Assembly (NCBI GenBank): GCA_947258565.1
Contig: CAMYJB010000004.1
Span: 34,970-98,969, forward strand
DNA length: 64,000 nt
Source: an uncultured Woeseiaceae bacterium
GTDB taxonomy: Bacteria; Pseudomonadota; Gammaproteobacteria; Steroidobacterales; Woeseiaceae
Reading direction: 5' to 3'
Both the position numbers and the translations under genes were made by a program. The notes below the pieces were generated by a model. The model was not told the origin of the DNA and did no database searches. It saw only the letters and a list, made by a program, of their open reading frames with translations. Positions 13,366 to 62,117 of this stretch are shown here, in pieces. Position 1 is the first letter of the stretch; each line of letters begins with the position of its first letter.

Positions 13366-13658
13366 TGCTCGATACCCAGAACGCGGTCGACCTCGCGAGC
13401 GAGGTCGGGTGGCGCACGCCGGTTCGCGGCGTCGGGCACGATGAGGATCAGCGGATGTGCCTGCCGCAGCGCTGCGTCGAGCCGCTCGCTATCCAGCTCT
13501 GCCGCGCAGGCAGCGGTGATGAGCAGGAGCTCGTCGTTGCCGATGGCCGCGTCGAACGCTGCTGCGGCACCGCCCGCTTCGGCGGCAGTCGCGCGCACGC
13601 CGATCAGGCGCCAGGCACTCGCCGTGATCTCGTCGCCGATGAAGGCCGGAACCGCCAC
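13362..13658 (-). CDS. V-type ATPase subunit F
   Basis: A 98-residue protein that opens 'AVPAFIGDEITASAWRLIGVRA', the signature start of V/A-ATPase subunit F ('xxFIGDexTaxgFrLaGv'). A Rossmann-like alternation follows, with 'ELLLITAACAAEL' and 'HPLILIVPDA'. F binds the end of the D shaft and modulates rotation. Length and position between K and E fit. It overlaps subunit E by 4 bases and ends 1 base from subunit K. Confidence 0.88.
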   Translation of the reverse strand: MAVPAFIGDEITASAWRLIGVRATAAEAGGAAAAFDAAIGNDELLLITAACAAELDSERLDAALRQAHPLILIVPDAANRRAPPDLAREVDRVLGIEQ

Positions 13659-13659
13659 G

Positions 13660-44093: not shown

Positions 44094-45125
44094 TCAGCCG
44101 CCGATGTAATACATTTCCGGTTTGTGGATCTCGCGCCCGCGGCGCAGCAACTCGGCGCGTTGTTCGCTGTAGCGGTCCGCTCGTCTCGTCCACGCGCGAT
44201 GAATGATGCTGAACAGCTCTTCGTCGCTGGCGCCGTCCCGCAGCGGCTGCCGCAGGTCGGTACCGGCGGTGGCGAACAGGCAGGTAAACAACTGGCCGTC
44301 GGACGACAGTCGCGCCCGATGACAGCTGCCGCAGAACGGCTCGCTAACCGACGATATGAAGCCGATCTCGCCCTTGCCGTCTTCGTACAGGTAGCGCGTG
44401 GCCACTTCGCCATCGTAGTTACTGCGCTCCGCGCGCAGCGGCCAGCGTTCGCCGATGCGTGCCCGCAGTTCCGCGGACGGCACGGTATCGGACTCCTGCC
44501 AGTGGTTGATGTTGCCAACGTCCATGTACTCGATCATGCGCACGATGACGCCGCTGCCGCGGAATCGCTCGAGCAATCGCAGCACACTCTCGTCGTTGAC
44601 GCCGCGCTGCACGACCGCGTTGAGCTTGATCGGCGTGAGATCAGCCTCCAGCGCGGCATCGATGCCATCGAGGATACGGCCCAGACCGCCGCGTCCCCCG
44701 CTCATTTGCTCGAACACCTTCTCGTCCAGTGAATCGAGACTGACCGTTACGCGATCCAGCCCTGCAGCCTTGAGCCCCGCGGCATGCTGCCCCAGCAGGA
44801 TGCCGTTGGTCGTCAATGCGATCTCCTCGATGTTCGGCAGGGCACGAAGATCGCCGATGAGATCGCCGAGCGCCGGCCGCAGCAGAGGCTCTCCACCGGT
44901 GATACGCAGCTTGCGCACGCCAGCCGCGGTAAACAGGCTGGCGAGACGCACGATCTCGGCAAAATTCAGACGTTCCTTCGTCTTCAGGAACTGGAAATCA
45001 CGGTGATACTTTTCTTCCGGCATGCAGTAGGTGCAGCGGAAGTTACAGCGATCCGTAACGGAAATCCGCAGGTCACGCAGACTGCGACTCATCCGGTCGA
45101 GCAAATGATTCTCCGCCACGCGCAT
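44094..45125 (-). CDS. moaA: GTP 3',8-cyclase (molybdopterin step 1)
   Basis: A 343-residue radical SAM enzyme. The N-terminal cluster motif is CNFRCTYC (Cys27, Cys31, Cys34). The C-terminal cluster region is 'CGSCHRARLSSDGQLFTCLF', and the chain ends with the functional double Gly (YYIGG). It starts pterin synthesis from GTP together with MoaC. MoaC is not in this window. I chose the ATG at 45125, which has GGAG nine bases upstream. A GTG at 45164 would overlap the preceding gene. It is the last gene of the ten-gene tup-moa operon. Confidence 0.96.
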   Translation of the reverse strand: MRVAENHLLDRMSRSLRDLRISVTDRCNFRCTYCMPEEKYHRDFQFLKTKERLNFAEIVRLASLFTAAGVRKLRITGGEPLLRPALGDLIGDLRALPNIEEIALTTNGILLGQHAAGLKAAGLDRVTVSLDSLDEKVFEQMSGGRGGLGRILDGIDAALEADLTPIKLNAVVQRGVNDESVLRLLERFRGSGVIVRMIEYMDVGNINHWQESDTVPSAELRARIGERWPLRAERSNYDGEVATRYLYEDGKGEIGFISSVSEPFCGSCHRARLSSDGQLFTCLFATAGTDLRQPLRDGASDEELFSIIHRAWTRRADRYSEQRAELLRRGREIHKPEMYYIGG

Positions 45126-45156: not shown

Positions 45157-45435
45157 TCAGCCACCCGCTACCGCCGGGATGATACTGACTACGTCACCGT
45201 CGTTTAACGGCGTATCGAGCCCGGAGAACGACCTGACGTTCTCCGACCCGACGAAAACATTTACGTACGGCCGCAGTTCGCCCTCGCCGACGACGATGCG
45301 CTGCAGGAAGCCGGGGTGGCGCGCACCGATCTGCTCAAGTGCCGCGCCTACCGTGTCGGCCTCGGCATCGAGCACAGGCGCATCTTCAACGAAGGGTCGA
45401 AGCGGCGTAGGTATGCGTACGGTTATGTTGCTCAT
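45157..45435 (-). CDS. Ubiquitin-fold sulfur carrier, CysO/SAMP1-like (MoaD/ThiS family)
   Basis: A 92-residue beta-grasp protein ending in the activatable double Gly (IIPAVAGG). The opening 'ITVRIPTPLRPFVEDAPV' and the close 'DGDVVSIIPAVAGG' resemble actinobacterial CysO and archaeal SAMP1 more than classical E. coli MoaD, which is shorter and has a different N-terminus. Such proteins are adenylated by an E1-like enzyme and then carry sulfur or become attached to lysines. No E1 (MoeB) or MoaE gene is visible nearby. The ATG at 45435 overlaps yqeC by 4 bases. It may replace MoaD in cofactor sulfuration or serve another pathway; the sequence does not decide. Confidence 0.8.
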   Translation of the reverse strand: MSNITVRIPTPLRPFVEDAPVLDAEADTVGAALEQIGARHPGFLQRIVVGEGELRPYVNVFVGSENVRSFSGLDTPLNDGDVVSIIPAVAGG

Positions 45436-46184
45436 CCGGTCACCACGGCGACGACCGGCCCCTCGGGCCGTCGCAGACAACAAAGCACCACGCGATCGAA
45501 GCGTGATGTCAGCGCAAGTGCCGCAATGGCCGCGGCTCGCGCCCGTTTTTCTTGATCCTCATTGTCGACCATGTTTATTACCGGCGCAACACGCGCATCG
45601 CCTGTGCACTGCAGCGAACCGTGCTCGCTCGCGAGCAGCCGTCCCACCGCGCGGGGCGTCAGCGTCTCTCCGGGCGTGACGCCCGTGACCCTTGCAACCA
45701 TCTCGACCCGGTGTGCCACCCGCTCGCCCAGCGGTTCCCCGATCGCGCGTGCCGAAACGACCGGGATCACGATATCGGCCCCCGGCACGACCATCGGCTC
45801 GTCTGCGGAAGGCGCCTTGATCCAGCGCATCCTTGCCCCGTCGGCCTTGACGAAGGTCGCAGCAAAGCCGCCGGCATCGTGAATGGCCCGGATGGTTGCG
45901 GATGACACTCCTGCATGCCGGCCCGGCTTGCTCGACGGGCACGCATAGGCGACGGAACGAGTGGGATCGCCGGCCAGCACGCGGTCCTGCAGATTTGCAT
46001 CTTCATGGATGAGCTGGTCGACCGCGAGATTGGCGGGAAACTCGGTCGTATGCACCGTCGCGGTCAGCGCCACGCGTGCGTGGTGCTCGCGCACGAGCCG
46101 GTAGAGGACCGACTTCTTGCCGCCAGCGCCCACGGCGCAGACGATACCTTCGCGAGCCTCGAGCACGTCGATCAGGGCCGTCAT
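45432..46184 (-). CDS. yqeC: YqeC-type P-loop protein, putative selenium/molybdenum cofactor factor
   Basis: A 250-residue protein with an N-terminal phosphate-binding loop 'AVGAGGKKSVLYRLVREH' followed by 'VALTATVHTTEFP'. This is the layout of YqeC, annotated as a putative selenium-dependent molybdenum hydroxylase factor. 'FVKADGARMRWIKAPSADEPMVVPGADIVIPVVSARAIGEPL' is the conserved middle part. YqeC's biochemical role is unproven. Its presence is notable because the formate dehydrogenase here uses Cys, not Sec, and no selenium gene is in the window. Overlaps of 4 bases on each side couple it to the ubiquitin-fold and propeller genes. The frame continues 43 codons upstream of the chosen ATG. 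Confidence 0.78.
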   Translation of the reverse strand: MTALIDVLEAREGIVCAVGAGGKKSVLYRLVREHHARVALTATVHTTEFPANLAVDQLIHEDANLQDRVLAGDPTRSVAYACPSSKPGRHAGVSSATIRAIHDAGGFAATFVKADGARMRWIKAPSADEPMVVPGADIVIPVVSARAIGEPLGERVAHRVEMVARVTGVTPGETLTPRAVGRLLASEHGSLQCTGDARVAPVINMVDNEDQEKRARAAAIAALALTSRFDRVVLCCLRRPEGPVVAVVTG

Positions 46185-47248
46185 CCGGACGCGCCCTTTA
46201 TCGCCTTCACGCTCAGCACGCGCGGCAGGTAACTCGCAAGCTCCTCCCAGCTGTCGCCGGCATTCGTGCTCGCGAACAGCTGCCCACCGGAAGTCCCGAA
46301 GTAGACCCCGCACGGGTCACGGGAATCGATGTCCATCGCTTCCCTGAGCACCGTGATGTAGACGTGCTCCGTGGGCAGGCCCGCACTGGCCGACTCCCAG
46401 GTGAGCCCGCCATCGTGGCTGCGGTAAACCCGCAGCTTGCCGTCCACGGGCGCACGCAGGTGCGAACCGGATTCGGGAATCTGGAAAACGGTGTCCGGGT
46501 CGTTGGGGTCGACCACGATGCCGTAGCCGAAATCGCTGGGTAGTCCCGCGGTAATCTCCGTCCAGCTGCGGCCGCCATCGTCGCTCCTGTAGGTGCCGTT
46601 GTAGCACTGCCGGTAGAGCCGCGCCGGCAGCCGTGGGTGCATGATGACACGGTGCACGTTGTGGCCGGTTTCGGGGTAGGGCTCCGGCAGATTCTCGGCG
46701 CGCACCCCCGCATTCGCGGGACGCCAGGTCTCGCCGCCGTCTTCACTACGGTAAACGCCGCCGGCCGAGACGGCCGCGACGATGTTGTCGGGTTGCCGGG
46801 AATCCACGTAAATCGAATGCACCGCAAAACAGCCCTTCGACGGCTCCCAGGTCGCGCGGGTCGGGTGCTCGTTGAGGCCGGCGACCGGCCGCCAGCTCCT
46901 GCCGTCGTCGTCGCTGCGGAACAGCCCCGCGGGGTCGATGCCCGCAAACAGGGCGTCCCCGGCAAGCGCCAGGTACCAGACAGCTTTGGTCGCACCGCGG
47001 CCGCTCGACGACGGATACTCCGGCGCCACCTCGAGCGACGTCCACGATGCCCCGTGGTCCTCGCTCCTGAATATGTGTGCGCCCCAGATCGTGTGCGACG
47101 TCGCGGCGAACAGTCTGCCGTCCGGCGCTTCCAGGGTGTGCAGCACGGAGTAACCGGCGAGATGCGGCCCATCGATGCGCCACTCCCGGTCTGCAGAATC
47201 CCTGCGGACGCGAAACAACCCCTTCGCCGTCCCGACCAGAAGCATCAT
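46181..47248 (-). CDS. Six-Asp-box beta-propeller protein (BNR/sialidase-like repeats)
   Basis: A 355-residue protein with six Asp-box motifs (S-x-D/N-x-G-x-x-W): SEDHGASW, SDDDGRSW, SEDGGETW, SDDGGRSW, SHDGGLTW and STNAGDSW. They are spread over the whole chain, which predicts a beta-propeller. It opens 'MMLLVGTAKGLFRVRRD' without a signal peptide, so it should be cytoplasmic. The sialidase catalytic residues are not evident, so it should not be read as a sialidase. It shares 4 bases with yqeC and lies 26 bases after moaB, so it is embedded in the cofactor operon. A scaffold or chaperone role is inference only. Confidence 0.8.
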   Translation of the reverse strand: MMLLVGTAKGLFRVRRDSADREWRIDGPHLAGYSVLHTLEAPDGRLFAATSHTIWGAHIFRSEDHGASWTSLEVAPEYPSSSGRGATKAVWYLALAGDALFAGIDPAGLFRSDDDGRSWRPVAGLNEHPTRATWEPSKGCFAVHSIYVDSRQPDNIVAAVSAGGVYRSEDGGETWRPANAGVRAENLPEPYPETGHNVHRVIMHPRLPARLYRQCYNGTYRSDDGGRSWTEITAGLPSDFGYGIVVDPNDPDTVFQIPESGSHLRAPVDGKLRVYRSHDGGLTWESASAGLPTEHVYITVLREAMDIDSRDPCGVYFGTSGGQLFASTNAGDSWEELASYLPRVLSVKAIKGASG

Positions 47249-47274: not shown

Positions 47275-47805
47275 TCACGTCTCGAGCAGTCGCGGCATCA
47301 GTTCGGCAAGATTGCAGGGCCGCGTACGGATGTCGAGCTGCGCATTGATCAGCTCGTCCCAGGCCGTGGCGCAGGCGCCCGTGGACCCTGGCACACAAAA
47401 CACGTAGGTCCCGTTTGCCACCCCGGCAAACGCGCGAGACTGTATCGTCGAGGTCCTGATCTGCTCGAACGAGATCGCGCGGAAGGTCTCGCCGAAGCCG
47501 TCGATGCTCTTGTCCAGCAGCGGACTCACCGCCTCGGGTGTGCCGTCACGGCCCGTGACCCCGGTGCCGCCTGTCGTAATGACGACGTCGACGTCAGCGT
47601 CGGCGATCCAGCCGGCCACGACGGCGCGAATCGTGTAGACCTCGTCGGGCACGATCCGCTTTTCGGCGAGCGCGTGACCGGCATCAGCGAGCCTGCCGGC
47701 AAGCAGCTTGCCGGACTTGTCGGTCTCTTCCGTGCGACTGTCGGACACCGTCAGTACCGCGATGTTCAGCGCGACGAATTCGCGCTCTTTCGATTTCTTG
47801 CTCAT
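47275..47805 (-). CDS. moaB: Molybdopterin adenylyltransferase family protein MoaB
   Basis: A 176-residue MoaB/MogA-fold protein: 'LNIAVLTVSDSRTEETDKSGKLLAGRLADAGH', 'VVITTGGTGVTGRDGTPEAV' and 'GSTGACATAWDELINAQLDIRTRPCNLAEL'. The TGGTG loop binds the pterin phosphate. In organisms with tungsto-enzymes, MoaB adenylates the pterin before metal insertion by MoeA. That would fit the tungstate-type importer in the same operon (inference). It lies between moeA and the propeller gene. Confidence 0.94.
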   Translation of the reverse strand: MSKKSKEREFVALNIAVLTVSDSRTEETDKSGKLLAGRLADAGHALAEKRIVPDEVYTIRAVVAGWIADADVDVVITTGGTGVTGRDGTPEAVSPLLDKSIDGFGETFRAISFEQIRTSTIQSRAFAGVANGTYVFCVPGSTGACATAWDELINAQLDIRTRPCNLAELMPRLLET

Positions 47806-47842: not shown

Positions 47843-49108
47843 TCAGACGAATGCGGCGAACGGCTGTACTGTCACCTGGTCACCCTCGGAGACGGGACCC
47901 GAATCTTCCGGCAACACGATAAAGCAATTGGCGGCGGCCATCGAACTCAACACGCCGGATCCCTGGTGACCCGTTTTGTGCACGATAAGCCGGCCGTCGT
48001 CGGAACGCGATAGCACGCCGCGCTGGAACTCGCGGCGCCCCGGCTTCTTGCGAAGGGCCGAGCTGGATACGGCGCGCATCATCAACGGCGGTCCGGGATC
48101 CGGCATCCCTGCAAGGGCCTGCAGCGCCGGCTGCACGAGCTGGTAGAACGTCGCCATCACCGAGTTGGGATTGCCCGGCAGACCGAAGAACAGCGCGTCG
48201 CCGATGCGGCCGAATGCCAGTGGCCGCCCTGGTTTCATCGCCACCTTCCAGAACCCCACGGTGCCGGTGCGTTCCAGCGTCTCGGCGACGTAGTCCGCGT
48301 CCCCGACGGAGACGCCACCCGACGTCACGATTGCATCGGCTTCGGCGGCGGCCTTTGCGAACGCCTGCGCGACCGCGTCGCGGTCGTCGCGGATGACACC
48401 CATGTCGAGCGCGTCGACACCGAGGCGCGTCAGCATGCTGAAGATCGTGTAGCGGTTGCTGTCGTAAATCTGGCCCTCGCCGAGCGGTTCACCGACGCTT
48501 CTGAGCTCATCACCCGTGGAGAAGAATGCCACGCGCGGTCGGCGCCGGACGCTGACCTCGCCGACACCGAGCGATCCGAGGATGCCGATTTCTGCCGGCA
48601 TCAGGTGGGTCCCGGCGCTCAGCGCAACGCTGCCGGCGGCAATATCCTCACCGGCCTGGCGCACGTGCTGACCCGCTTTTTCCCCGGCGCCGACAATCGC
48701 CGTATCGCCATCGCGCGTGACGTTTTCCTGCATCACGACGGTGTCCGCGCCCACGGGCATCGGCGCGCCGGTCATGATGCGGACACACTGCCCTGGTACC
48801 ACCTCCCCGGCAAACGGGCGCCCTGCCGCGGACGTGCCGATCACGGTCAGGCGTGTCTCGCCGGCAGCCGGCAGGTCGGCGCCAATGAACGCATAACCAT
48901 CCATGGCGGAGTTGGTGTGCGACGGCACGTTGATTTTCGACACGACGTCGTCGGCAAGGAGCCGGCCCAGCGCGCTGCGCACCGCAAGCGTCTCGCAGCC
49001 CGCGACCGGTTTTACCGCTGCGAGGATGCGGCTCAAGGCTTCGCTGAGTTTCAGTGCCGGACCGTCATGGCCGTCGGCGCAACAGTCGGTATTGGTCTTG
49101 CTGCTCAT
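47843..49108 (-). CDS. moeA: Molybdopterin molybdenumtransferase
   Basis: A 421-residue MoeA: 'PSHTNSAMDGYAF', 'GEVVPGQCVRIMTGAPMPVGADTVVMQE', 'VAFFSTGDELRSVGEPLGEGQIYDSNRYTI', 'DAIVTSGGVSVGDADYV' and 'FGLPGNPNSVMATFYQLV'. All are standard MoeA landmarks across its four domains. It inserts the metal oxyanion into adenylated molybdopterin. It is 18 bases downstream of mobA and 37 upstream of moaB. Confidence 0.96.
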   Translation of the reverse strand: MSSKTNTDCCADGHDGPALKLSEALSRILAAVKPVAGCETLAVRSALGRLLADDVVSKINVPSHTNSAMDGYAFIGADLPAAGETRLTVIGTSAAGRPFAGEVVPGQCVRIMTGAPMPVGADTVVMQENVTRDGDTAIVGAGEKAGQHVRQAGEDIAAGSVALSAGTHLMPAEIGILGSLGVGEVSVRRRPRVAFFSTGDELRSVGEPLGEGQIYDSNRYTIFSMLTRLGVDALDMGVIRDDRDAVAQAFAKAAAEADAIVTSGGVSVGDADYVAETLERTGTVGFWKVAMKPGRPLAFGRIGDALFFGLPGNPNSVMATFYQLVQPALQALAGMPDPGPPLMMRAVSSSALRKKPGRREFQRGVLSRSDDGRLIVHKTGHQGSGVLSSMAAANCFIVLPEDSGPVSEGDQVTVQPFAAFV

Positions 49109-49126: not shown

Positions 49127-49735
49127 TCAGGACCGGGCACGTTTCGCGAGCGCATCTTCGAGCGCGCGCCTGTCGTCCGGTGCATTGATGTTGGCGAACC
49201 ACTCCGCCACATCGCTGAAATCCACCGTCTCGTAACCGTGCCGGGCGTACCAACGATCGATCTTACGCTCCCCGGCATCGAGATAACCAGCCAGGTCGTC
49301 CAGCAAATCGCAGGACAGCAAGGCGAACACCGGCTGCAACCGGCCGCCATCGTGAGCGGCCGCTACGGGCGCCCCCGATGTCGCCACCGCTGCAAGTAGT
49401 CGCTGCACGAGTTCGCCACCGATCAGCGGCGAGTCGCAGGGCACGACCGCGATGTACGGCGTGCGTGCTGCGCGCATGCCGCTGGCCATGCCCGCCAACG
49501 GACCGCGGAAGTCACTATCGCCGTCATCGACAACGGGGCAACCGTATTCACCGTAGCGCTCATGGTTACGATTCGCGTTGACCAGCACGTCCGCCACCTG
49601 CGGGCGCAGCGCATCGATCACCCAGGCGATCATGGGTCGGCCATTGATGGGCACCAGCCCCTTGTCCACGCCGCCCATGCGTGTTGCCCTGCCGCCGGCG
49701 AGTATGACGCCCGTGACCTGATCGCGAACTCTCAC
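49127..49735 (-). CDS. mobA: Molybdenum cofactor guanylyltransferase
   Basis: A 202-residue nucleotidyltransferase. The GTP-binding signature is LAGGRATRMGGVDKGL (Gly14-Gly15, Arg19, Lys25), followed by 'GPLAGMASGMRAA' and 'VVPCDSPLIGGELVQRL'. It adds GMP to the cofactor to make the bis-MGD form that formate dehydrogenases use, so it links this operon directly to the fdh genes. I chose the GTG at 49735; the frame is open upstream, but that stretch overlaps tupA and lacks similarity. Confidence 0.92.
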   Translation of the reverse strand: MRVRDQVTGVILAGGRATRMGGVDKGLVPINGRPMIAWVIDALRPQVADVLVNANRNHERYGEYGCPVVDDGDSDFRGPLAGMASGMRAARTPYIAVVPCDSPLIGGELVQRLLAAVATSGAPVAAAHDGGRLQPVFALLSCDLLDDLAGYLDAGERKIDRWYARHGYETVDFSDVAEWFANINAPDDRRALEDALAKRARS

Positions 49736-49751
49736 ATTCGTCGGCTTCAAG

Positions 49752-50612
49752 CTAGTGCCCGTCCGCGGCCCCGGCTTGCGGAACGGCATCCGGGAAAAAC
49801 AGCTGCTGCCCTGCCACGCGGTAGGCGGCAATTGCCGCCTGACCCTTTCTGGAGGTAAGCCAGTCGACGAACGCCTGTGCTTCGTTCGCGTGAATGTGCG
49901 GATGGCGCTCCGGATTCACGACGATGGCTGCGTAAGGATTGTGCAGGCGCGTGTCGCCTTCGACGAGAATCTCGAGATCACCCTTGTTGCCGAAACTGAC
50001 CCAGCTTGCACGATCCGTCAGCGCGTAGCCGTCCATGGCACTCGCCGTATTGAGCGTCGCGCCCATGCCCGAGCCGGACTCGCGGTACCAGCCGCCGCTC
50101 GCAGGGCGCGGATCGAAACCGGATGACTGCCAGAGCTCCAGTTCTTTCTTGTGCGTGCCGCTGTCGTCGCCGCGAGACAGGAACACGTGCTCACCGCTGC
50201 CGATGCGCCGCAGCGCTGAAGTGACGTCGTTCATACCGCGTATCCCGGCGGGATCGCTGCCCGGGCCGACGAGAACAAAATCGTTGTGCATGACGGGATG
50301 GCGGGCGATCCCGAGGCCCGCCGCAACGAATTCGCGCTCGGAGGCTTCGTGGTGCACCAGCAACAGGTCTGCATCACCGTTGGTAGCGATCCGGATCGCC
50401 TGCCCGGTTCCGACCGCGACGACCTGGACCCCGATGCCGGTCTGCGCCGTAAACTGCGGCAGCAGCCATTCGAGGAGACCCGAGTTCTGCGTGGACGTCG
50501 TGGACGCGATCGTGATCGAGCGTGATTCGCCATTTACGGCACCCGCGATCATCACGGCGCCCAGGGCGAACGCCAACAGCAAACGGCCGAAGCCGCTGGA
50601 GCCCGTCGCCAT
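49752..50612 (-). CDS. tupA: Tungstate/molybdate-binding periplasmic protein (TupA-like)
   Basis: A 286-residue exported binding protein. It has a Sec signal peptide (residues about 1-29). The mature start contains 'TIASTTSTQNSGLLEWLLPQF', the TupA oxyanion-binding motif (TTST-x-(N/D)-SG, residues 38-45). Further contacts appear in 'GDADLLLVHHEASEREF' and 'FLSRGDDSGTHKKEL'. TupA proteins known so far prefer tungstate with high affinity. Binding of molybdate cannot be excluded from sequence. It is the third gene of the operon after tupB and tupC. Confidence 0.9.
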   Translation of the reverse strand: MATGSSGFGRLLLAFALGAVMIAGAVNGESRSITIASTTSTQNSGLLEWLLPQFTAQTGIGVQVVAVGTGQAIRIATNGDADLLLVHHEASEREFVAAGLGIARHPVMHNDFVLVGPGSDPAGIRGMNDVTSALRRIGSGEHVFLSRGDDSGTHKKELELWQSSGFDPRPASGGWYRESGSGMGATLNTASAMDGYALTDRASWVSFGNKGDLEILVEGDTRLHNPYAAIVVNPERHPHIHANEAQAFVDWLTSRKGQAAIAAYRVAGQQLFFPDAVPQAGAADGH

Positions 50613-50664
50613 GTCGGTTCTTATCGTCAAGGTGCGCTTCCCGCGGTTCAAAGCGTGGGCGGGC

Positions 50665-51441
50665 CTAACCGGGCAGCTCGCCGGCCAGGAAGCCGGCCGC
50701 CACCGGGTCTTTCGGTGCCGCAAAAAATTCCGCCGCCGGCGCGTGTTCGAGGAGGCGCCCGTCGTTGAGGAACATCACGTCCGCGGCAAGGCGCCGTGCC
50801 TGCGCAATATCGTGCGTGGTCATCAGAATCTTGGTGCCGGCGGCACCGATAACGCCGATCAGTTCTTCGACCCCCCGTACGGCTGCCGGGTCGAGATTCG
50901 TCGTGGGCTCGTCCAGCAGCAACACTTTCGGCCTGAGCACCAAAGCACGGGCAATGGCCAGTCTCTGCTGCTGGCCGCCCGACAGCGTGCGGGCGGCACG
51001 CGCACCGAGACCCGCGAGGCCCGCCCGCTCCAGGGCGGCATCCACGAGCGCCGGCCGTTCGCTGCGCGCTACGCCCTTGACGCTCAGCACGTGCAGCAGG
51101 TTGCCCTTCACCGTACGCCGCAACAGCACCGGGTGTTGCGACGCCATCGCCTGCTGCTCGCGCGCCTGTGAAACCGAAAGCTCACCCCAGCGGATCTCCC
51201 CGCCCGTCGGTTCGAGGAGGCCGTGACACAGGCGCAACATGACGCTCTTGCCGGCGCCATTCGGGCCGAGTATGACGGTCCGGCCGGACGACCCGATCCA
51301 GAACGACACATCCTTGATGATGCGCCGGCCGTTGATTCCGAACGTCAAGCCGCGCGCCACCAGTGGCAGCAGTGGGTGCTCGTCAGGCCGGTCCGGCGGC
51401 ATTCGCCCCGGCTCCTCGGTTTTGGGCGCTTCATCAGCCAT
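50665..51441 (-). CDS. tupC: Tungstate ABC transporter ATP-binding protein (TupC-like)
   Basis: A 258-residue ATPase with Walker A (GPNGAGKS), the signature LSGGQQQR, Walker B (VLLLDEP) and 'TTNLDP'. The switch His is in MTTHD. It energises the adjacent TupB permease, whose stop it overlaps by 8 bases. ModC-type C-terminal oxyanion-sensing domains are absent, which separates it from the molybdate importer ModC. The Tup assignment depends on the adjacent TupA and TupB genes. Confidence 0.88.
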   Translation of the reverse strand: MADEAPKTEEPGRMPPDRPDEHPLLPLVARGLTFGINGRRIIKDVSFWIGSSGRTVILGPNGAGKSVMLRLCHGLLEPTGGEIRWGELSVSQAREQQAMASQHPVLLRRTVKGNLLHVLSVKGVARSERPALVDAALERAGLAGLGARAARTLSGGQQQRLAIARALVLRPKVLLLDEPTTNLDPAAVRGVEELIGVIGAAGTKILMTTHDIAQARRLAADVMFLNDGRLLEHAPAAEFFAAPKDPVAAGFLAGELPG

Positions 51442-52138
51442 AGCGCTGTCTCGCCGCATCGGAAATCACGAGGGCGGTTGCGTTAACGCCGAGCGCCAGG
51501 GTCACGAGAATCAGGCCGAGACCGAGTGCGAGCGCGAGGTTGCCCTTGCTCGTCTCCAGGGCGATCGTGGTCGTCATCACGCGCGTGGCGTGCTGGATGT
51601 TGCCGCCCACGATGATGACCGCGCCGACTTCGGCAATGGCCCTGCCGAAGCCGGCCATGATCGCCGTCAACAATCGAAAACGTCCGTCCCAGAGCAGCGT
51701 CGCCACGCTCTGTATCGGCGTGCAGCCCAGCGAACGCAGGTGCTCGTCGTATTCTTCGTGCAGATCGGCAATCGTCTGCCGCGACAGCGCCGCGATGATC
51801 GGCAGAACAATAATGCTCTGGGCAATGACCATCGCGGTGGGAGTAAACAAGAGCCCCATCGGCCCCAGCGGCCCGGCGCGGGACAGCAGGAGGTAAACCA
51901 TGAGACCGACGACCACGGGCGGCAGGCCCATCAGCGCATTGAGCAGGATTACGACAGCACGCCGGCCCGGGAAATGTTGCAGCGCAATGAGGGCACCAAG
52001 CGGCAGCGCGACGACCGACGCAATCGCGACCGCGCTCAGGCTTACCCGCAGTGACAGCAAGACGATCTCCACGATAGCGGCGTCGAACGTCACGATCATC
52101 GATAAGGCTGCGCCAATGGCAGACGAAAACTCGTTCAT
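51434..52138 (-). CDS. tupB: Tungstate ABC transporter permease (TupB-like)
   Basis: A 234-residue inner-membrane permease with about five helices. 'LSLRVSLSAVAIASVVALPLGALIAL' and the coupling region 'ALMGLPPVVVGLMVYLLLSRAGPLG' carry the EAA-type loop of TupB/ModB permeases. The motif 'GRAIAEVGAVIIVGGNI' is typical of TupB. It is the first gene of the leftward ten-gene operon and is divergent from the eroded regulator across 227 bases. Confidence 0.9.
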   Translation of the reverse strand: MNEFSSAIGAALSMIVTFDAAIVEIVLLSLRVSLSAVAIASVVALPLGALIALQHFPGRRAVVILLNALMGLPPVVVGLMVYLLLSRAGPLGPMGLLFTPTAMVIAQSIIVLPIIAALSRQTIADLHEEYDEHLRSLGCTPIQSVATLLWDGRFRLLTAIMAGFGRAIAEVGAVIIVGGNIQHATRVMTTTIALETSKGNLALALGLGLILVTLALGVNATALVISDAARQRYG

Positions 52139-53417: not shown

Positions 53418-54353
53418 TCAGTCTGTGCCGGTCCAGACCAGGTTGCCCAGCTCGGACAGGTCGTAGCCGCCCAGCATGTTTGCCTGCCGTCGGCACTCGT
53501 CACCGCGAAGATAGTCCAGGAGCCGCTGAAACAGCCGGCGGAAGAATATGCCGCGGTGCAGGGCCAGGTCGAATGCCTCCCAGCCGATGGGCACGAAGTC
53601 GAGACCGAATTCGTTGGCAACGGCTCGGACCCCCGGACCCACTTCGGCCTGCCCCATCGCGACCAGCGACGCCGCCTCGCGCTCCGTGCTCGCGCGGCCG
53701 GTAATTCGCCGGTCGGCCGGATCCAGCTCCTCGCGCGAGATGAGTTCGCGCAGAAAACGCTGTGAGCCGGCACCTTCCTGGCGCTCGAACCAGCGGACCC
53801 CGTGCTGGAACAACCCTTCGAATCCCATTTCGGCCGACCACAGGCCCGGTGCCACCAGCAAGCCCTGCTCACGTCGGAACAGCCGCACCAGCGCCCAGTC
53901 GCCAGCCTGTACGAATTGCCGGATCAGTGCGGGATGGCGCTGGTAGGACTCGTCGGCCGGACCCCAGTGAATACCGCACACATCCGCGCGGCGGCGCGCC
54001 AGCAACATCAGGCCGAGCTGGCTGCCCGTCGCGGCATAGCTCATCAGCGCCTTCGACTGCAGGGCAGTGGCAACGTGCGTTACGGCACGAAACAGCAGCG
54101 GATCGTCGCTGCCCGCGATCACAATGCGGTCGGTCAGCAAGCCGCCGTGGCTCGACTCGAGCAACCACTGGTCCACGAGGTCGCGAGGGAACAGCCACTT
54201 GCCGGTAAGTTTCGTCGCCGGGATCTTGCCCTCGCGTACCAGCGCGTAGATCTTCTTCTCGTTCACCTGCAGGTAGGCGGCCACCTGCTTCACCGTCATG
54301 AAGCGCGGCTGTTCCCCGCCGTTCGCTTCGTTGTCTGCTTTCCCGGAAGTCAA
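53418..54353 (-). CDS. Helix-turn-helix regulator with a periplasmic-binding-like sensor domain
   Basis: A 311-residue cytoplasmic protein. Residues 19-65 are an excisionase/MerR-like HTH ('MTVKQVAAYLQVNEKKIYAL', 'LTGKWLFPRDLVDQWL'). Residues about 75-305 form a PBP_like domain ('DRIVIAGSDDPLLFRAVTHVATAL', 'GSQLGLMLLARRRADVCGIHWG', 'FGLDFVPIGWEAFDLALHRGIFF') of the type that senses oxyanions or small ligands. It is divergent from the fdh operon, only 39 bases from its first gene, and so is the most likely direct regulator of that operon. A molybdate or tungstate ligand would fit the context, but is not shown. Confidence 0.82.
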   Translation of the reverse strand: MTSGKADNEANGGEQPRFMTVKQVAAYLQVNEKKIYALVREGKIPATKLTGKWLFPRDLVDQWLLESSHGGLLTDRIVIAGSDDPLLFRAVTHVATALQSKALMSYAATGSQLGLMLLARRRADVCGIHWGPADESYQRHPALIRQFVQAGDWALVRLFRREQGLLVAPGLWSAEMGFEGLFQHGVRWFERQEGAGSQRFLRELISREELDPADRRITGRASTEREAASLVAMGQAEVGPGVRAVANEFGLDFVPIGWEAFDLALHRGIFFRRLFQRLLDYLRGDECRRQANMLGGYDLSELGNLVWTGTD

Positions 54354-54392
54354 ATCATACTCACTCGCGTCATTGCGCTAATATTGGCAGAC

Positions 54393-54872
54393 ATGAGCCA
54401 GCCAGATCGACACACTGTAGCCGTAATCATGGAGCGTAAACAGGTCAGGCGCGGACGTTGGTCCGTGCCGAGCTGGCGCGCAGTCTCCGTCGTTGCGGGC
54501 GAGCATGTCGTCGGCAAGAGCAGCGGCCGCAGCCCGATTTACGAGCGCGATGACGAGGCACAGTACCTCTGGTCCGGCCTCCCCTTGCTGTTGTATCGCG
54601 ACCTGGCGGAAGAGTATTGGTACAACCTGACCGGCGACAACCCGTCGTTGTTCGTCATCTGCCACGAGACGCCCGACGGTGAACTCACGCCGTTCCGGGT
54701 CACTGCCGATCACGATTCGGCGACGGTCTGCCTCGAGAGCGACGACCAGGTGTTCGCGGTGCCGGTGCCGCCCGAGATCTACCAGCACCTGGAGAAGTTC
54801 GTCGTGACGCACTTCGTGCCGCAGGAACGCAAGAAGCGCAAGCGCAAGAACTGGTCGGAGACCCCGGGCTGA
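54393..54872 (+). CDS. DUF3305 domain protein, formate dehydrogenase-associated
   Basis: A 159-residue soluble protein starting 'MSQPDRHTVAVIMERKQVRRGRWSVPSWRAVSVV'. 'LPLLLYRDLAEEYWYNLTGDNPSLFVICHE' and 'VPVPPEIYQHLEKFVVTHFVPQERKKRKR' follow. This is the DUF3305 pattern, found next to DUF3306 in fdh operons of many Proteobacteria. The function is unknown; the strict linkage suggests a maturation role. ATG at 54393 is chosen; longer frames run antisense through the regulator. It is the first gene of the fdh operon and shares one base with the next. Confidence 0.82.
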   Translation: MSQPDRHTVAVIMERKQVRRGRWSVPSWRAVSVVAGEHVVGKSSGRSPIYERDDEAQYLWSGLPLLLYRDLAEEYWYNLTGDNPSLFVICHETPDGELTPFRVTADHDSATVCLESDDQVFAVPVPPEIYQHLEKFVVTHFVPQERKKRKRKNWSETPG

Positions 54873-55459
54873 TGGCCGAAAACCGACATAGCGATCAGGA
54901 GGGTTTCCTGACGCGCTGGTCGCGCCGCAAGGCCCTGTCGCGCAGCGGCGAGGAATTGCCGGAGCCCATTGAGGATGTGGACGAGGAGCGGCCGGAAGCG
55001 GTCGCGTCCGTGCAGGAATCTGCGCCGGATGTTGAAGAGCCGGCGCCGGAGCATCCTGGCGACGATGCCCGCGCCCCGGCGGACGCGGCGCCGGAACTGC
55101 CGCCACTTGAGTCGCTGGACGAGAATTCGGATTACAGTGCGTTTCTCGGTGACGGCGTACCGGCCGACATGAAGCAGAAAGCGCTGCGCAAGCTGTTCCA
55201 CAGCCCCAAGTTCAATATCCGCGACGGCCTCGATGACTACGACTGGGACTTCACCAATCCCGAGCCGCTGGGCGATATCATCACGGCCGAGATGCGCTAC
55301 CGCGTGGAGCGCGAACTCGAGCGGCTGGCGGGTCTCGACGACGAGGAGGAGAAACCGGAAGATTCGCCCACCGTGGCCGCGGTCGACGCCGGAGAGCGCG
55401 ACGAGCCCGACAACGAGTCTGACCGCGAGGCCGACGATGACCAACCTGAACCTTCCTGA
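54872..55459 (+). CDS. DUF3306 domain protein, formate dehydrogenase-associated
   Basis: A 195-residue acidic protein. The start 'GFLTRWSRRKAL' and the central 'LPPLESLDENSDYSAFLGDGVPADMKQKALRKLFHSPKFNIRDGLDDYDWDF' are the DUF3306 signature. The rest is low-complexity, rich in Glu, Asp and Pro, and likely disordered. It always travels with DUF3305 near formate dehydrogenases, so a maturation or assembly role is inferred. It overlaps the ferredoxin gene by 23 bases. Confidence 0.85.
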   Translation: MAENRHSDQEGFLTRWSRRKALSRSGEELPEPIEDVDEERPEAVASVQESAPDVEEPAPEHPGDDARAPADAAPELPPLESLDENSDYSAFLGDGVPADMKQKALRKLFHSPKFNIRDGLDDYDWDFTNPEPLGDIITAEMRYRVERELERLAGLDDEEEKPEDSPTVAAVDAGERDEPDNESDREADDDQPEPS

Positions 55460-57107
55460 CAGCACCGCAAGCGGCCGGGCGCGAGCCGAGGCTCTCGACC
55501 TCCGCCATCGGCCGGAAGTGGCGTCCACCTCAATTGTCAGCTTCCTGTCCCACGGCCGCGTTCTTATCGTCGGCGAGGAAACGCAGGCGCTGGCGGCTGC
55601 CGGCCGCCTCGGCGAGGGACTCGTTGCGACGCTGTTTTGTCCGGCTGATTCGCGGCCGGCCACAGCGACGGTCGATGGCCTGACCGTCGTCCGCGGCGGC
55701 ACGCCCGAGCTTTCGGGAAGCCTTGGTAGTTACACCCTGAGCCTTGCAGCTTCAGAAGACGACGTTGAGTCACCGGCGGTCGCGATGCTCACGCAGGCCC
55801 GTTTCGACCTCGTGCTCGACCTGACCGACCCGCCGCTGCTGCAGCAAGAGGCCTTGCCGCCCGGCTACTACGCGCCGCGCGACGACGCAGACGCGCTGGA
55901 CAGCGCCATAACCGAATTACCGGAGATGCGCGGCGAGTTCGAGAAACCCAAGTATTTCAATCTCGACCCCGAGATCTGTGCGCACGGCCGCAGGGGCATC
56001 CGCGGCTGCACTCGCTGCCTCGATGTCTGTCCGGCCTGGGCGATAACCTCGGCCGGCGAACACGTGACGGTGGATCCGAACCTGTGCCAGGGCTTCGGCA
56101 GCTGTGCGTCCGTCTGCCCGACCGGTGCCATTACGTATGCGTTTCCGAGCACCGGCGACCTGCTCGGCTACGTGCGCACCGTTCTGGTCAGCTACCGCGA
56201 TTCCGGCGGGGCGGATCCGTTGCTCGTGTTCTTCGACAGCGCATCGGCGGGCGCGATTGCGGACGGACTCGGCGCCGCGTTGCCGGAAAACGCGCTGCCG
56301 GTCCAGCTGGAAGAGGTCGGGTCCATCGGCATGGATGCGTGGCTGACCTGCCTCGCCTACGGCGCCCGCCGCGTGCTGATCCTCACGGGACGCGATACGC
56401 CGCAGAGCATCCGCGACGTGCTGGAACGCCAGATTGGCTACACCTCGCCGATCCTGGAGGGTATGGGTTACCCCGGCGCTGCCATAGAGGCAGTGGATTC
56501 CGGTGACGTCGGCACGGTAACGGCTGCCGCGAACCCGGACCAGTCGATCAGCCTGGAAAGCCCCGCCCGCTTCGCGCCGCCCCCGGAAAAACGCCTGCTG
56601 CTGCGCACGGCGATCAACTACCTGCTGGAGCACGCCCCGAGCCACAGGAAGGTTGCGGCATTGCCTGCGGGCGCACCGTTCGGCCGGGTCAAGGTCGATG
56701 CGGCCGCGTGCACGCTGTGCATGAGCTGCGTCGCGGTCTGCCCGACCTCAGCGCTGCGCGAAGGGCAGGGACTGCCGCAGCTGAATTTCGTCGAGCGCTC
56801 CTGCATCCAGTGCGGATCGTGTGAAAAAGCCTGTCCGGAGGACGCTGTCTCGCTCGAGACCCGCTTCCTGTACGACGACAAGGAACGCGGCGCCCAGCGC
56901 CTGCTGCACGAGGAGCAGCCGCTGTGCTGCATTTCCTGCGGCAAGCCGTTCGCCACGCGGTCGATGCTCAGGGTCATGGCGAAAAAGCTCGAGGACCACT
57001 GGATGTTCCAGAGCGACGCCGACCGGCGACGCCTGGAGATGTGCGAAGACTGCCGGGTCAAGGACCTGATGCGCGCACAACAGGGTGGCGGACCGGGGCC
57101 TGTCTGA
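55437..57107 (+). CDS. Large multi-cluster ferredoxin of the fdh operon
   Basis: A 556-residue cytoplasmic iron-sulfur protein. An N-terminal Rossmann-like part (about 35-135, 'GRVLIVGEETQALAAAGRLGEG') precedes two ferredoxin modules. Module 1 uses Cys181, 191, 194, 198 and Cys217, 223, 227 with CP ends. Module 2 uses Cys425, 428, 431, 435 and Cys456, 459, 462, 466 with perfect CxxCxxCxxxCP spacing. A C-terminal CxxC pair set (Cys498/501, Cys536/539) looks like a zinc or further cluster site. The protein recurs in fdh operons, and an electron-transfer or cofactor-maturation role is likely but unproven. It overlaps DUF3306 by 23 bases. Confidence 0.85.
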   Translation: MTNLNLPDSTASGRARAEALDLRHRPEVASTSIVSFLSHGRVLIVGEETQALAAAGRLGEGLVATLFCPADSRPATATVDGLTVVRGGTPELSGSLGSYTLSLAASEDDVESPAVAMLTQARFDLVLDLTDPPLLQQEALPPGYYAPRDDADALDSAITELPEMRGEFEKPKYFNLDPEICAHGRRGIRGCTRCLDVCPAWAITSAGEHVTVDPNLCQGFGSCASVCPTGAITYAFPSTGDLLGYVRTVLVSYRDSGGADPLLVFFDSASAGAIADGLGAALPENALPVQLEEVGSIGMDAWLTCLAYGARRVLILTGRDTPQSIRDVLERQIGYTSPILEGMGYPGAAIEAVDSGDVGTVTAAANPDQSISLESPARFAPPPEKRLLLRTAINYLLEHAPSHRKVAALPAGAPFGRVKVDAAACTLCMSCVAVCPTSALREGQGLPQLNFVERSCIQCGSCEKACPEDAVSLETRFLYDDKERGAQRLLHEEQPLCCISCGKPFATRSMLRVMAKKLEDHWMFQSDADRRRLEMCEDCRVKDLMRAQQGGGPGPV

Positions 57108-57301
57108 GCCTGCGTATCGTCGACAGACAACACGGTGACGGTCGACCGGGCACGGATGGGACAAAATGTCGCTCTGTGCTGTCTTCACGCTAAATAGTTC
57201 TGACTATTTGTCCCTTAACAGTGATTTATTGTCAGTGGCGGCCGCCCTCCTATTTGACTAAACTTAGGTGAAATAACTGGGGGATTAGCGGGCTCGGATA
57301 C
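57108..57301. promoter_or_regulatory. Internal control region between the ferredoxin and TorD genes
   Basis: A 194-base gap inside the fdh gene cluster. It holds a perfect AT-rich hairpin AAATAGT-TCTG-ACTATTT (57192-57209), then a TTGTCA (57230-57235) with TATTTG 16 bases on, which is a weak -35/-10 pair. The gap is AT-rich compared with its surroundings, and no good ribosome site precedes the TorD ATG. A second promoter for the catalytic genes probably lies here, separating them from the upstream maturation genes. Confidence 0.4.
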
Positions 57302-57979
57302 ATGACCGAAGCACCTGCATTACACGACGCAACCGCCGCTGCCGGCATCTCGTCTTTGGAGCCGGAAGACCGGCTCCGAGCCGATACTTACCGGGTTCTC
57401 GGCCGGCTGCTTGCGGCGCCGCCGGATGCGGAAACCCTGGACCTGTTTGCAACCGCTCCCGTCAGCAACGAAGACAACCTCCTCGCCGTCGCCTGGCGGA
57501 TGCTGGCGATGTCCGCCGAACGCGCGACGCCGGGCGAGGTAGCGGACGAATACCAGACCTTGTTCATCGGCCTCGGCCGCGGCGAACTCGTGCCGTTCGG
57601 CTCCTGGTACCTCACGGGGTTCCTGATGGAACAGCCGCTCGCCCGGCTCCGCACCGACATGCAAAAGCTCGGCTTCGAGCGCCAGGATGACGTCGCCGAG
57701 CCCGAGGATCATGCTGCGGCGCTCTGCGAAATCATGGCGTTGCTTGCAGAAGATACCGGCCCCGGCAGTCTCGAGGTGCAGGCCGCGTTTTTCGAAACCC
57801 ACATCGGAACCTGGATGACGCGCTTATTCCGCGACATGCAGGAGGCTTCCTCGGCGCGCTTTTACCGCGCCGTTGGCCAGCTTGGAGAGCAATTTATTAA
57901 TACGGACCAGCGTTACCTGGAAATGGTGGAACGATCGGACGCCACACCGGGCGAGCCGGTCCGCCCCGGTATTTCATAA
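57302..57979 (+). CDS. TorD/DmsD-type molecular chaperone for the formate dehydrogenase
   Basis: A 225-residue all-helical protein. 'RADTYRVLGRLLAAPPDAETLDLF' opens the TorD/NarJ fold. The motif 'EVADEYQTLFIGLGRGELVPFGSWYLTGFLMEQPLARLRTDMQKLGF' is the family core (E-Y-x-x-L-F-x-G and P-x-x-S-x-Y). Such redox-enzyme chaperones hold the Tat signal peptide of the apo-enzyme until the pterin cofactor is inserted. It is encoded immediately before the two Tat-signal proteins of this operon. Confidence 0.88.
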   Translation: MTEAPALHDATAAAGISSLEPEDRLRADTYRVLGRLLAAPPDAETLDLFATAPVSNEDNLLAVAWRMLAMSAERATPGEVADEYQTLFIGLGRGELVPFGSWYLTGFLMEQPLARLRTDMQKLGFERQDDVAEPEDHAAALCEIMALLAEDTGPGSLEVQAAFFETHIGTWMTRLFRDMQEASSARFYRAVGQLGEQFINTDQRYLEMVERSDATPGEPVRPGIS

Positions 57980-58016: not shown

Positions 58017-58226
58017 ATGAGTCGTAAATCGAGTTCGTACACCGCTGATCGGCGTACATTTCTCAAGAAGCTGGCTGCGGCGGGGGGCGCAACGGCAGCG
58101 GTCGCGATGTCCGGCCGTGCGGCCGTCGCCTCACCGGAGCAGGCCACCGCGCCCGGGCCGGCCAAACAAAAGGGTTACCACGAAACCCCCCACATTCGTA
58201 GCTATTACCGTTCTGCCCGCCTGTAA
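58017..58226 (+). CDS. Small Tat-signal protein of the formate dehydrogenase operon
   Basis: A 69-residue protein with a twin-arginine signal (Arg12-Arg13 in DRRTFLKKLAAAGGATAA). A very short tail follows, ending 'KGYHETPHIRSYYRSARL', where YHETxHIRxYY is conserved among proteins at this position in fdh operons. After signal cleavage near AVAS only about 30 residues would remain. It may be a small periplasmic subunit of the enzyme or an export helper. GAGATAGGAG lies just before the ATG (58007-58016). Confidence 0.78.
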   Translation: MSRKSSSYTADRRTFLKKLAAAGGATAAVAMSGRAAVASPEQATAPGPAKQKGYHETPHIRSYYRSARL

Positions 58227-58280
58227 CCGGCTGCTGAACCGGACTACAGCGCAACAGAAACCAACCTTGGGAGATTAGCG

Positions 58281-61193: not shown

Positions 61194-61204
61194 GAGACTC
61201 GAAC

Positions 61205-61795
61205 ATGGCACGTATGAAATTTCTTTGTGACGCCGAGCGCTGCATCGAGTGCAACGGTTGTGTAACGGCCTGCAAGAACGAGCACGAGGTCCCCTGGGGC
61301 GTAAACCGGCGCCGCGTCGTGACCCTCGATGACGGCGTTCCCGGCGAGAAATCGGTATCGGTTGCGTGCATGCACTGTACCGATGCGCCCTGCGCCGCCG
61401 TCTGCCCGGTCGACTGTTTTTACACGACCGACGACGGCATCGTCCTGCACGACAAGGACCTCTGCATCGGTTGCGGCTACTGCTTCTACGCCTGCCCGTT
61501 CGGGGCGCCGCAGTTCCCGCAACAGGAGGCCTTTGGCGTTCGCGGCAAGATGGACAAGTGCACGTTCTGCGCGGGTGGTCCCGAGGACAACAGCTCAGCC
61601 GCCGAACTCGAGAAGTACGGCCGCAACCGTGTTGCCGAGGGCAAGCTGCCGCTGTGCGCCGAGATGTGCAGCACGAAGGCCCTGCTTGCCGGCGACGGCG
61701 ATATGGTCGCAGACATCTACCGCGAGCGGATCACGAAACGTGGCGGGCGCCCCGAGACCTGGGGTTGGGAGACCGCCTACAAGGGTGACGCCTGA
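61205..61795 (+). CDS. fdhB: Formate dehydrogenase iron-sulfur beta subunit
   Basis: A 196-residue protein with four [4Fe-4S] sites: CIECNGCVTAC (Cys13, 16, 19, 23), CMHCTDAPCAAVCP, CIGCGYCFYACPFGAP and the final set CTFCAGG with CAEMC. It passes electrons from FdhA to the membrane cytochrome. There is no membrane anchor of the FdnH kind at its C-terminus ('GGRPETWGWETAYKGDA'). There is no Tat signal of its own, so it must be exported bound to FdhA. Start at 61205 follows FdhA by 11 bases. Confidence 0.96.
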   Translation: MARMKFLCDAERCIECNGCVTACKNEHEVPWGVNRRRVVTLDDGVPGEKSVSVACMHCTDAPCAAVCPVDCFYTTDDGIVLHDKDLCIGCGYCFYACPFGAPQFPQQEAFGVRGKMDKCTFCAGGPEDNSSAAELEKYGRNRVAEGKLPLCAEMCSTKALLAGDGDMVADIYRERITKRGGRPETWGWETAYKGDA

Positions 61796-61823
61796 TAGAG
61801 CAGACGTTGCTGGGACAAGAATA

Positions 61824-62045
61824 GTGACAACAGTCGAGAATAAGGGGCAGCGCCCGCTGGCAATGGCGCTCGCCCTTGCTGTCATGTCGATAAGCTTGAC
61901 CGCCTGTGCAGAACGGGCGGAGGTTACCTTGCACGAACCGGGTGTCTACAAGGGTAGTGTGGATCCGCTGCTGGCACAGCAGCAGAATCCGGAACAGATC
62001 CAGACACTGCAGGATCGATTTGCCAAGGGGCAGTCGGACCGGTAG
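61824..62045 (+). CDS. Small lipoprotein of the formate dehydrogenase operon
   Basis: A 73-residue lipoprotein read from a GTG at 61824: 'VENKGQRPLAMALALAVMSISLTACAERAEV', lipobox LTAC with Cys28, then 'TLHEPGVYKGSVDPLLAQQQNPEQIQTLQDRF'. The GTG start gives a charged n-region before the hydrophobic core; an ATG 13 codons later would lose it. The motif 'EPGxYKGxxDPLL' is distinctive. It lies between fdhB and fdhC, so it is probably an accessory of the membrane-bound enzyme. Function unknown. Confidence 0.72.
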   Translation: MTTVENKGQRPLAMALALAVMSISLTACAERAEVTLHEPGVYKGSVDPLLAQQQNPEQIQTLQDRFAKGQSDR

Positions 62046-62117
62046 TCAGGCCGGCCCGGAGAAGCGAATGGACGCCGCGGCCCGACAGGGGTCGCGGCGC
62101 AAACAGGAGCCTGGTCA

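Follow-up and report, generated by a model that had tools for sequence, protein, structure and literature searches.

Operons that join a ThiS/MoaD-type carrier to a rhodanese-bearing E1 and a JAB protease (classes 4a–4e) have been on record since 2006 and were predicted to serve in sulfur transfer (Iyer, Burroughs and Aravind 2006, PMC1779556) and YqeC is known as a selenium-linked factor (PMC2276186), so that the building blocks of the system considered here have already been described. As for formate dehydrogenase (FDH), FdhD passes sulfur from IscS to the molybdenum (Mo)-bis(pyranopterin guanine dinucleotide) (Mo-bisPGD) of the enzyme (PMC10609526), which is typically inactive when the sulfido ligand is missing (PMC12140954), and a 2023 review cautions that fdhD is missing from some of the organisms that express FDH (PMC10609526). 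The present analysis concerns a stretch of 64,000 nucleotides (the window) from an uncultured Woeseiaceae bacterium, in which three genes encoding a β-propeller, YqeC and a ubiquitin-fold carrier lie between moaB and moaA. In our judgement it is close to an even question whether a dedicated sulfur relay, with this trio as its core, matures FDH and stands in for FdhD. The three genes are the following:

46181..47248, minus strand: propeller, an Asp-box β-propeller of 355 amino acids with six Asp-boxes and seven predicted blades (3b7f match, Asp-boxes and strand pattern)
45432..46184, minus strand: yqeC, a P-loop protein of 250 amino acids with a predicted SIMIBI G-protein-like fold (TIGR03172)
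45157..45435, minus strand: carrier, a CysO/SAMP1-like ubiquitin-fold protein of 92 amino acids with the C-terminus IIPAVAGG (ThiS PF02597, 58.4 bits)

The initial annotation had described these genes as overlapping by 4 bases each between moaB and moaA and had read their products as a β-grasp carrier ending in GG, YqeC and an Asp-box protein; its coordinates were right, both junctions (propeller/yqeC and yqeC/carrier) are ATGA overlaps and the three families were confirmed by family models. The minus-strand order in the window is tupB-tupC-tupA-mobA-moeA-moaB-propeller-yqeC-carrier-moaA. The propeller/yqeC overlap is seen again in 39 of 60 relatives and the yqeC/carrier overlap in 13 of 32, a recurrence that exceeds chance. 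A riboswitch at the locus was also considered and dropped, a scan with Rfam at gathering scores over 43–64 kb having returned zero matches.

The linkage of the three genes is not peculiar to this genome. In a species-level scan (one genome per species), in which the best 80 of 85 propeller relatives were kept, YqeC was found adjacent to the propeller in 60 loci, the carrier within 2.5 kb in 48 and both in 45, and among these 45 trio loci Mo/tungsten (W)-cofactor genes occur in 44, FDH genes in 30, an E1 in 22 and a JAMM gene in 15; the co-occurrence that the initial annotation had led one to expect is thus borne out. These neighbour counts are lower bounds, because the flanks extended over no more than 8 kb and were often ended by contig ends. 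The remaining 35 loci comprise 15 with YqeC and no recognised carrier, three with a carrier and no YqeC and 17 with neither, the last having a molybdenum-cofactor gene nearby in 12 cases and Gemmatimonadota-type titles in 16. In twelve loci (L121, L122, L124–L127, L132, L135, L138, L140, L149 and L151), nearly all titled Gemmatimonadota, a MoeA-like gene immediately precedes the propeller, and neither YqeC nor a recognised carrier is present; this is a different Mo-linked propeller arrangement. Twelve propeller–YqeC pairs without a recognised carrier (L083, L086, L087, L096, L105, L109–L113, L152 and L155) are found in varied contexts.

Within the class, the propeller is matched in 56 of 274 genomes, and, leaving the window aside, the 32 best-scoring places (E ≤ 2.3e-31) were examined with their flanks. 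An open reading frame (ORF) that is ThiS-like and ends in GG adjoins the propeller, or in two cases follows yqeC, in 26 of these 32 places by visual judgement (19 when labelled by phmmer alone), which indicates that the carrier–propeller pairing is broad; YqeC is added to it in one subfamily. A natural carrier–propeller fusion was sought, and no ORF in L001–L069 or L077–L156 matched both families. The propeller at L044:857-3249 (G164:C44) is fused to a protein kinase domain (PF00069, 174.3 bits), with a carrier directly after it, a possible signalling version of the pair, and on the Pseudomonas aeruginosa plasmid pZYPA1927 (L075:4699-6095) a gene annotated “MoaD/ThiS family protein” stands beside an “exo-alpha-sialidase”, the same pair, whose naming is probably misleading.

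The second line of evidence is the absence of FdhD from FDH-bearing genomes. The window's genome (G000; 3.48 Mb in 53 contigs, 99.69% complete) has zero matches to FdhD (TIGR00129), and no module protein matches this family, the matches being to other families. Fifty module genomes were searched, namely those of the 48 carrier-bearing loci together with those of L108 and L156, so that the FdhD search covered the genomes of 50 of the 80 loci. FdhD exceeds the cut-off in four of the 50, and FDH3-beta is present at E ≤ 1e-60 in 40 (over the cut-off in 39 of the 40), of which 37, a number that takes in G322/L156 where no carrier was found, are without over-cut-off FdhD, the three others being G289, G299 and G306. 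At E ≤ 0.001 FdhD is matched in five of the 50, the fifth match being a stop-containing fragment of 20 bits (G277) that would bring the count to 36 of 40.

As a control, FDH3-beta counted over the cut-off, and not at the E ≤ 1e-60 used for the module genomes, occurs in 30 of 258 genomes of the class, and 23 of these 30 have an FdhD match at E ≤ 0.001, many of the 23 being below the curated cut-off (22 with at least 112 bits, G107 with 75). The seven without FdhD are G000, G093, G123, G155, G177, G211 and G214. YqeC is over its cut-off in seven of the 30, four without FdhD (G000, G093, G155, G214) and three with it (G085, G140, G209), and FdhD is present in 20 of the 23 FDH-bearing genomes without YqeC. 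Fisher's test, which ignores kinship, gives p=1.9e-10 for the module set versus the YqeC-free set (1.0e-9 with the G277 fragment) and p=0.03 for YqeC versus FdhD absence inside the class sample, where the trio is known in two of the 30 genomes (G000 and G155). FDH3-beta without FdhD is found also in genomes not titled as metagenome-assembled (MAGs), namely Thioalkalivibrio sp. XN8, Methylonatrum kenyense, Wenzhouxiangella limi and Spiribacter salilacus; Aquisalimonas lutea, likewise not titled MAG, has both. In G155 the module lies on one contig and the FDH operon on another, yet FdhD is again absent, so that the association does not reflect synteny alone. Since most of the searched module genomes are without FdhD, the gene set may replace it. 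Tungsten as the cause of FdhD loss was rejected: the W-FDH of M. extorquens requires fdhD (PMC13197769), so that W by itself does not account for the loss.

Several observations weigh against a relay that stands in for FdhD. Most of the 50 genomes come from related Gammaproteobacteria, most are also MAGs, and kinship was not matched in the control; in ten of the 50 FDH3-beta was not found at E ≤ 1e-60, and three FDH-bearing module genomes do possess FdhD. G093 and G214 have FDH and YqeC and no FdhD, yet no propeller or carrier lies beside their YqeC, and G123, G177 and G211 have FDH with neither FdhD nor over-cut-off YqeC, G123 (470 contigs) and G211 (86% complete) being poor assemblies, unlike G177 (99%). 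YqeC–propeller pairs without a recognised carrier make up 15 of the 80 loci, and in the class the carrier–propeller pair is often found without YqeC; such YqeC-free pairs occur also in five FDH3-positive genomes that keep FdhD (G014, G055, G085, G160 and G196), from which it follows that the carrier–propeller pair alone does not replace it. Furthermore, deletion of yqeC in C. difficile gave no obvious phenotype (PMC11448449), and no strong E1 was found behind the FDH island in the FDH flanks of 12 relatives, some of them short, where the search returned one 159-bit ThiF-like ORF (L242).

This last result concerns the E1 of the window's genome. The initial annotation had reported that neither an E1 nor MoaE was nearby, which was inexact, the absence of an E1 being true of the window only: an E1 with ThiF (266.3 bits) and rhodanese (52.1 bits) domains lies at G000:C4:99695-100852, corresponding to 64726–65883 in window numbering, 0.7 kb past the edge, and MoaE is encoded in a moaC-moaD-moaE cluster elsewhere in the genome. 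The other of the two ThiF matches in the genome is a MoeB-like protein without rhodanese, and the one other ThiS-family match is the MoaD of that cluster (64.1 bits, cut-off 66.15; MoaE 82.1, cut-off 175, both therefore under the NCBIfam cut-offs). The idea that an E1 is conserved in the region behind the FDH island was rejected, and the position of the E1 at the window edge is not evidence, as this place is not kept in the 12 relatives.

The identity of the carrier bears on what it may deliver. It scores 57.4 bits with the SAMP1 model (NF041918, cut-off 60), 53.9 with moaD_arch (cut-off 49.5) and 16.3 with MoaD (cut-off 66.15), missing the SAMP1 equivalog cut-off narrowly and that of MoaD by far, and it has the ThiS fold and the C-terminal GG (in AVAGG) of E1-activated sulfur carriers. 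In a tree, a weak one built from short sequences, 49 module carriers fall within a clade of 51 (support 0.876) and five MoaDs fall outside. By sequence, then, the carrier is CysO/SAMP1-like and not MoaD; a classical MoaD identity was rejected on the model scores and the tree, as the initial annotation had held, and the outcome that it had named as fatal, a carrier inside MoaD with no conserved linkage to the other two genes, is not what was found.

The main rival makes the carrier a second MoaD, specific to W or FDH, that would feed a MoaE-type molybdopterin synthase and hence the dithiolene, the loss of FdhD being unrelated. The placing of the carrier among moaA, moaB, moeA and mobA is in keeping with this, as are four loci (L131, L134, L147 and L148) in which moaA and moaE adjoin each other and have no ThiS-like GG-ending ORF within 600 bases of them. 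Nevertheless, 48 of the 50 module genomes, those of the four loci included, hold at least two ThiS-family matches (E ≤ 0.001); G000 already has moaC-moaD-moaE, L123 and L142 hold a MoaD plus a carrier in one locus, the module carriers form their clade apart from the MoaDs, and YqeC, the propeller and FdhD loss would be left unexplained. We regard this alternative as unlikely.

The PDB chain closest to the carrier by sequence is CysO of M. tuberculosis (3dwg; E 6.2e-17, 43% identity), CysO of Amycolatopsis (4n6e) being 40% identical. This likeness, together with a Tsukamurella CysO-like gene accompanied by an M67 peptidase and a cysteine synthase, could suggest that the trio serves the synthesis of cysteine or another thio-metabolite and merely shares the operon. 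The CysO-CysM-Mec+ system has a dedicated cysteine synthase and a JAMM partner; here a synthase-like ORF (PALP/cysteine-synthase type) is found in one of the 80 loci, L136 (identical in place to L042), where it is encoded on the other strand about 6 kb away from the carrier, phmmer with two cysteine synthases found no further one in the 80 loci, and Mo/W and FDH genes account for most of the neighbours. Such a function is very improbable.

The end of the carrier domain is nearly invariant, VAGG in 47 of 48 carriers and IAGG in one, and most unfused carriers stop at GG (L095 has one residue more, L102 and L104 short extensions). The E1 partner, for which a search had been suggested, was found fused to the carrier in nine relatives (L094, L097–L101, L103, L106 and L153), where the carrier makes up the N-terminal domain of a rhodanese-E1 and a linker follows VAGG; in L103, the one checked, Pfam confirmed the ThiS, Rhodanese and ThiF domains. 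A JAMM gene adjoins all nine fused carriers and six of the 39 unfused carrier loci. This arrangement links the carrier, by way of a free di-glycine, to activation by an E1, the simplest reading being that the JAMM protease would free the GG end of the fusions; both the VAGG end and the fusions fit a carrier that would work via its activated C-terminus.

The same features could also point to protein tagging, in which the carrier would be conjugated to FDH or to a maturation factor, as SAMP1 is, and removed by JAMM. The carrier is indeed near SAMP1, an E1 is present or fused to it, and the JAMM protein of L103 is nearest the desampylase model (112.5 bits, cut-off 130). On the other hand, JAMM was found in only a third of the trio loci (15 of 45), the window's genome holds a sub-cut-off JAMM match only, and all the E1s examined (L035, L042 and L103) bear a sulfurtransferase rhodanese domain, so that tagging appears quite unlikely.

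YqeC scores 98.6 bits with PF19842 and 143.8 with TIGR03172, above the equivalog cut-off of the latter (73.05). Its predicted structure (mean predicted local distance difference test score, pLDDT, 97.0) matches, in Foldseek against the PDB, MeaB (8dpb, E 8.2e-5) and HypB (4lps, E 3.3e-3), with modest template modelling (TM) scores of 0.43–0.45; its structural neighbours, these two among them, we take to be SIMIBI proteins. SIMIBI G proteins such as MeaB and HypB gate the delivery of cofactors or metals. In L219 (G209) and L220 (G085), which belong to one family, yqeC directly adjoins fdhD, and in L221 (G121) it lies about 1.1 kb from fdhD on the opposite strand; all three genomes keep FdhD, and this proximity also points YqeC to the sulfuration step.

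TIGR03172 bears the name “selenium cofactor biosynthesis”, and selenation of the cofactor was among the branches, with sulfuration and protein tagging, that the initial annotation had proposed. Selenation is disfavoured and scarcely credible, as the best SelD match in the window's genome, the one module genome searched for it, reaches 69.7 bits against a cut-off of 125; sulfuration is the branch that best fits the absence of FdhD, the joint chemistry of the three proteins being inferred.

It may also be that propeller and YqeC constitute a general module for handling the Mo/W cofactor or FDH, as chaperone and proofreading switch, that the carrier has no sulfur role and that FdhD was lost by lineage. 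The 15 propeller–YqeC loci without a recognised carrier would be accommodated by this explanation, as would L222, where YqeC is near a Mo-hydroxylase-like cluster (a reading made by eye, except for the MocA label), and the FdhD statistics, as said, ignore kinship. The near-invariant VAGG end and the nine E1 fusions, however, would be unexpected in a carrier without a sulfur role, and the absence of FdhD recurs in the four organisms named above whose records are not titled as MAGs; we hold this explanation to be unlikely.

The propeller belongs to the Asp-box (BNR/Sortilin-type) family, has the Asp-box propeller character of BNR glycosyl hydrolases/sialidases and closely matches 3b7f of Ralstonia eutropha (reut_b4987, “BNR glycosyl hydrolase”; phmmer E 3.6e-72; Foldseek E 9.4e-36, TM 0.90, 39% identity); the F510_1955 model gives 83 bits, below its cut-off of 175. 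The six Asp-box motifs noticed initially were located at residues 62, 112, 168, 222, 277 and 327, but the six blades then assumed become seven in the predicted structure (pLDDT 90), whose strands read as a seventh blade closed between the C and N termini. No signal peptide was seen by eye, and the conserved polar residues include H144, H199, Q214, R265 and R302. Since further structural matches comprise peptide-bound Asp-box propellers (YCF48/D1 peptide, DAIP/thermolysin C-terminal fragment and sortilin/neurotensin), binding of the carrier's tail by the modelled propeller is plausible.

Taken together, these elements suggest how the sulfur relay might operate. A rhodanese-bearing E1 would adenylate the C-terminal GG of the carrier and turn it into a thiocarboxylate, JAMM freeing the GG end where the carrier is made as a fusion; the propeller would dock the charged tail, YqeC, as a SIMIBI-type nucleotide switch, would hold or gate the Mo/W-bis(molybdopterin guanine dinucleotide) (bisMGD) cofactor, and the carrier sulfur would become the terminal sulfido ligand of Mo/W-bisMGD before insertion into FDH. 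Sulfuration of FDH by sulfide is chemically possible in vitro (PMC12140954), which makes a protein sulfide donor chemically reasonable. This specific version, in which the carrier thiocarboxylate, docked by propeller and YqeC, replaces FdhD by an unrelated mechanism, we put forward tentatively and with less confidence than the relay as such.

The other relevant genes of the window concern the Mo/W cofactor, tungstate uptake and FDH:

44094..45125, minus strand: moaA, immediately downstream of the trio (TIGR02666, 371.8 bits, cut-off 284.05)
47275..47805, minus strand: moaB, immediately upstream of the trio (TIGR02667, 264.4 bits, cut-off 222.4)
47843..49108, minus strand: moeA (NF007960, 576.7 bits, cut-off 440)
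49127..49831, minus strand: mobA, given as the ORF, its true start not being fixed (TIGR02665, 233.7 bits, cut-off 151.85)
49752..52138, minus strand: tupA-, tupC- and tupB-like tungstate uptake genes (49752–50723, 50665–51459 and 51434–52138)
53418..54353, minus strand: regulator with HTH_17 (PF12728, 58 bits) and PBP_like (PF12727, 156.4 bits) domains
53802..57979, plus strand: FDH accessory genes, namely a DUF3305-type ORF (53802–54872), a 4Fe-4S protein (55233–57107) and a TorD/DmsD-like chaperone (57302–57979)
58017..63185, plus strand: FDH operon of the FDH3 type
58017–58226, plus strand: twin-arginine translocation (Tat)-target peptide of this operon (TIGR02811, 61.6 bits, cut-off 48.45)
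58281–61193, plus strand: FdhA (TIGR01591, 480.2 bits, below the cut-off of 666.25)
61205–61795, plus strand: FDH3-type beta subunit (NF038355, 347.8 bits, cut-off 240)
62118–63185, plus strand: FDH gamma subunit (TIGR01583, 168.2 bits, cut-off 115.85)

The probable start of moaA is the ATG at 45125, a GTG at 45164 being also in frame. The TupA (223.9 bits, cut-off 400) and TupB (155.5 bits, cut-off 320) matches are both below cut-off, and the middle ORF encodes an ABC ATPase. The NCBIfam matches of the FDH accessory genes are all under the cut-offs of the best models, the DUF3305 label being taken from the name of NF011058. The regulator, encoded opposite these genes and with a relative in 15 of the 80 loci, is possibly a candidate oxyanion-responsive protein. 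FdhA carries a Cys within ARICHSTTVAG, which from the motif we take to be the metal-ligand site. At 9593–15971 the minus strand of the window carries V/A-type ATPase genes (A/B-type subunits and a 116 kDa-type subunit, by Pfam).

What would be gained if the proposed relay were real? The module is a concrete, testable candidate for filling the gap in FDH organisms without fdhD. Through it, ubiquitin-like sulfur carriers would be connected with the sulfuration of metals, a role independent of selenium would be suggested for YqeC, and a propeller family of solved structure (that of 3b7f) would gain a candidate partner; it would also provide parts for building CO2-reducing W/Mo FDHs in new hosts. 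The combination of carrier/YqeC, propeller and FdhD-less FDH was not found in the literature searched, which was open-licence only and does not show absence in print.

With respect to the systems already described, the module shares with the operons of classes 4a–4e the carrier, the rhodanese-E1 and, in some cases, JAMM, but differs from them in that YqeC and a β-propeller are joined to these components inside Mo/W-cofactor and FDH islands; the words propeller, BNR, sialidase and glycosyl hydrolase do not appear in the main text of PMC1779556. With CysO of M. tuberculosis and Amycolatopsis the carrier has in common the fold and the AVAGG end, its neighbours being a propeller and YqeC instead of a cysteine synthase, and the propeller is of the same family as 3b7f, to which the window adds a conserved carrier neighbour. 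YqeC belongs to the same family (TIGR03172) as its counterpart in the clusters of selenium-dependent Mo hydroxylases (Haft and Self 2008, PMC2276186; PMC11448449), yet here it stands beside FDH genes in a genome without SelD over the cut-off. The clusters linked to aldehyde ferredoxin oxidoreductase (AOR) likewise contain a second MoaD-like gene in a W-related setting, for the tungsten cofactor (PMC1779556), whereas in the window the enzyme is FDH and the carrier is CysO-like and accompanied by YqeC and the propeller. Finally, the job proposed for the module, provision of the sulfido ligand for the Mo/W-bisMGD of FDH, is the one performed by FdhD (TIGR00129; PMC10609526), to which the module would be functionally alike without being a member of its family.

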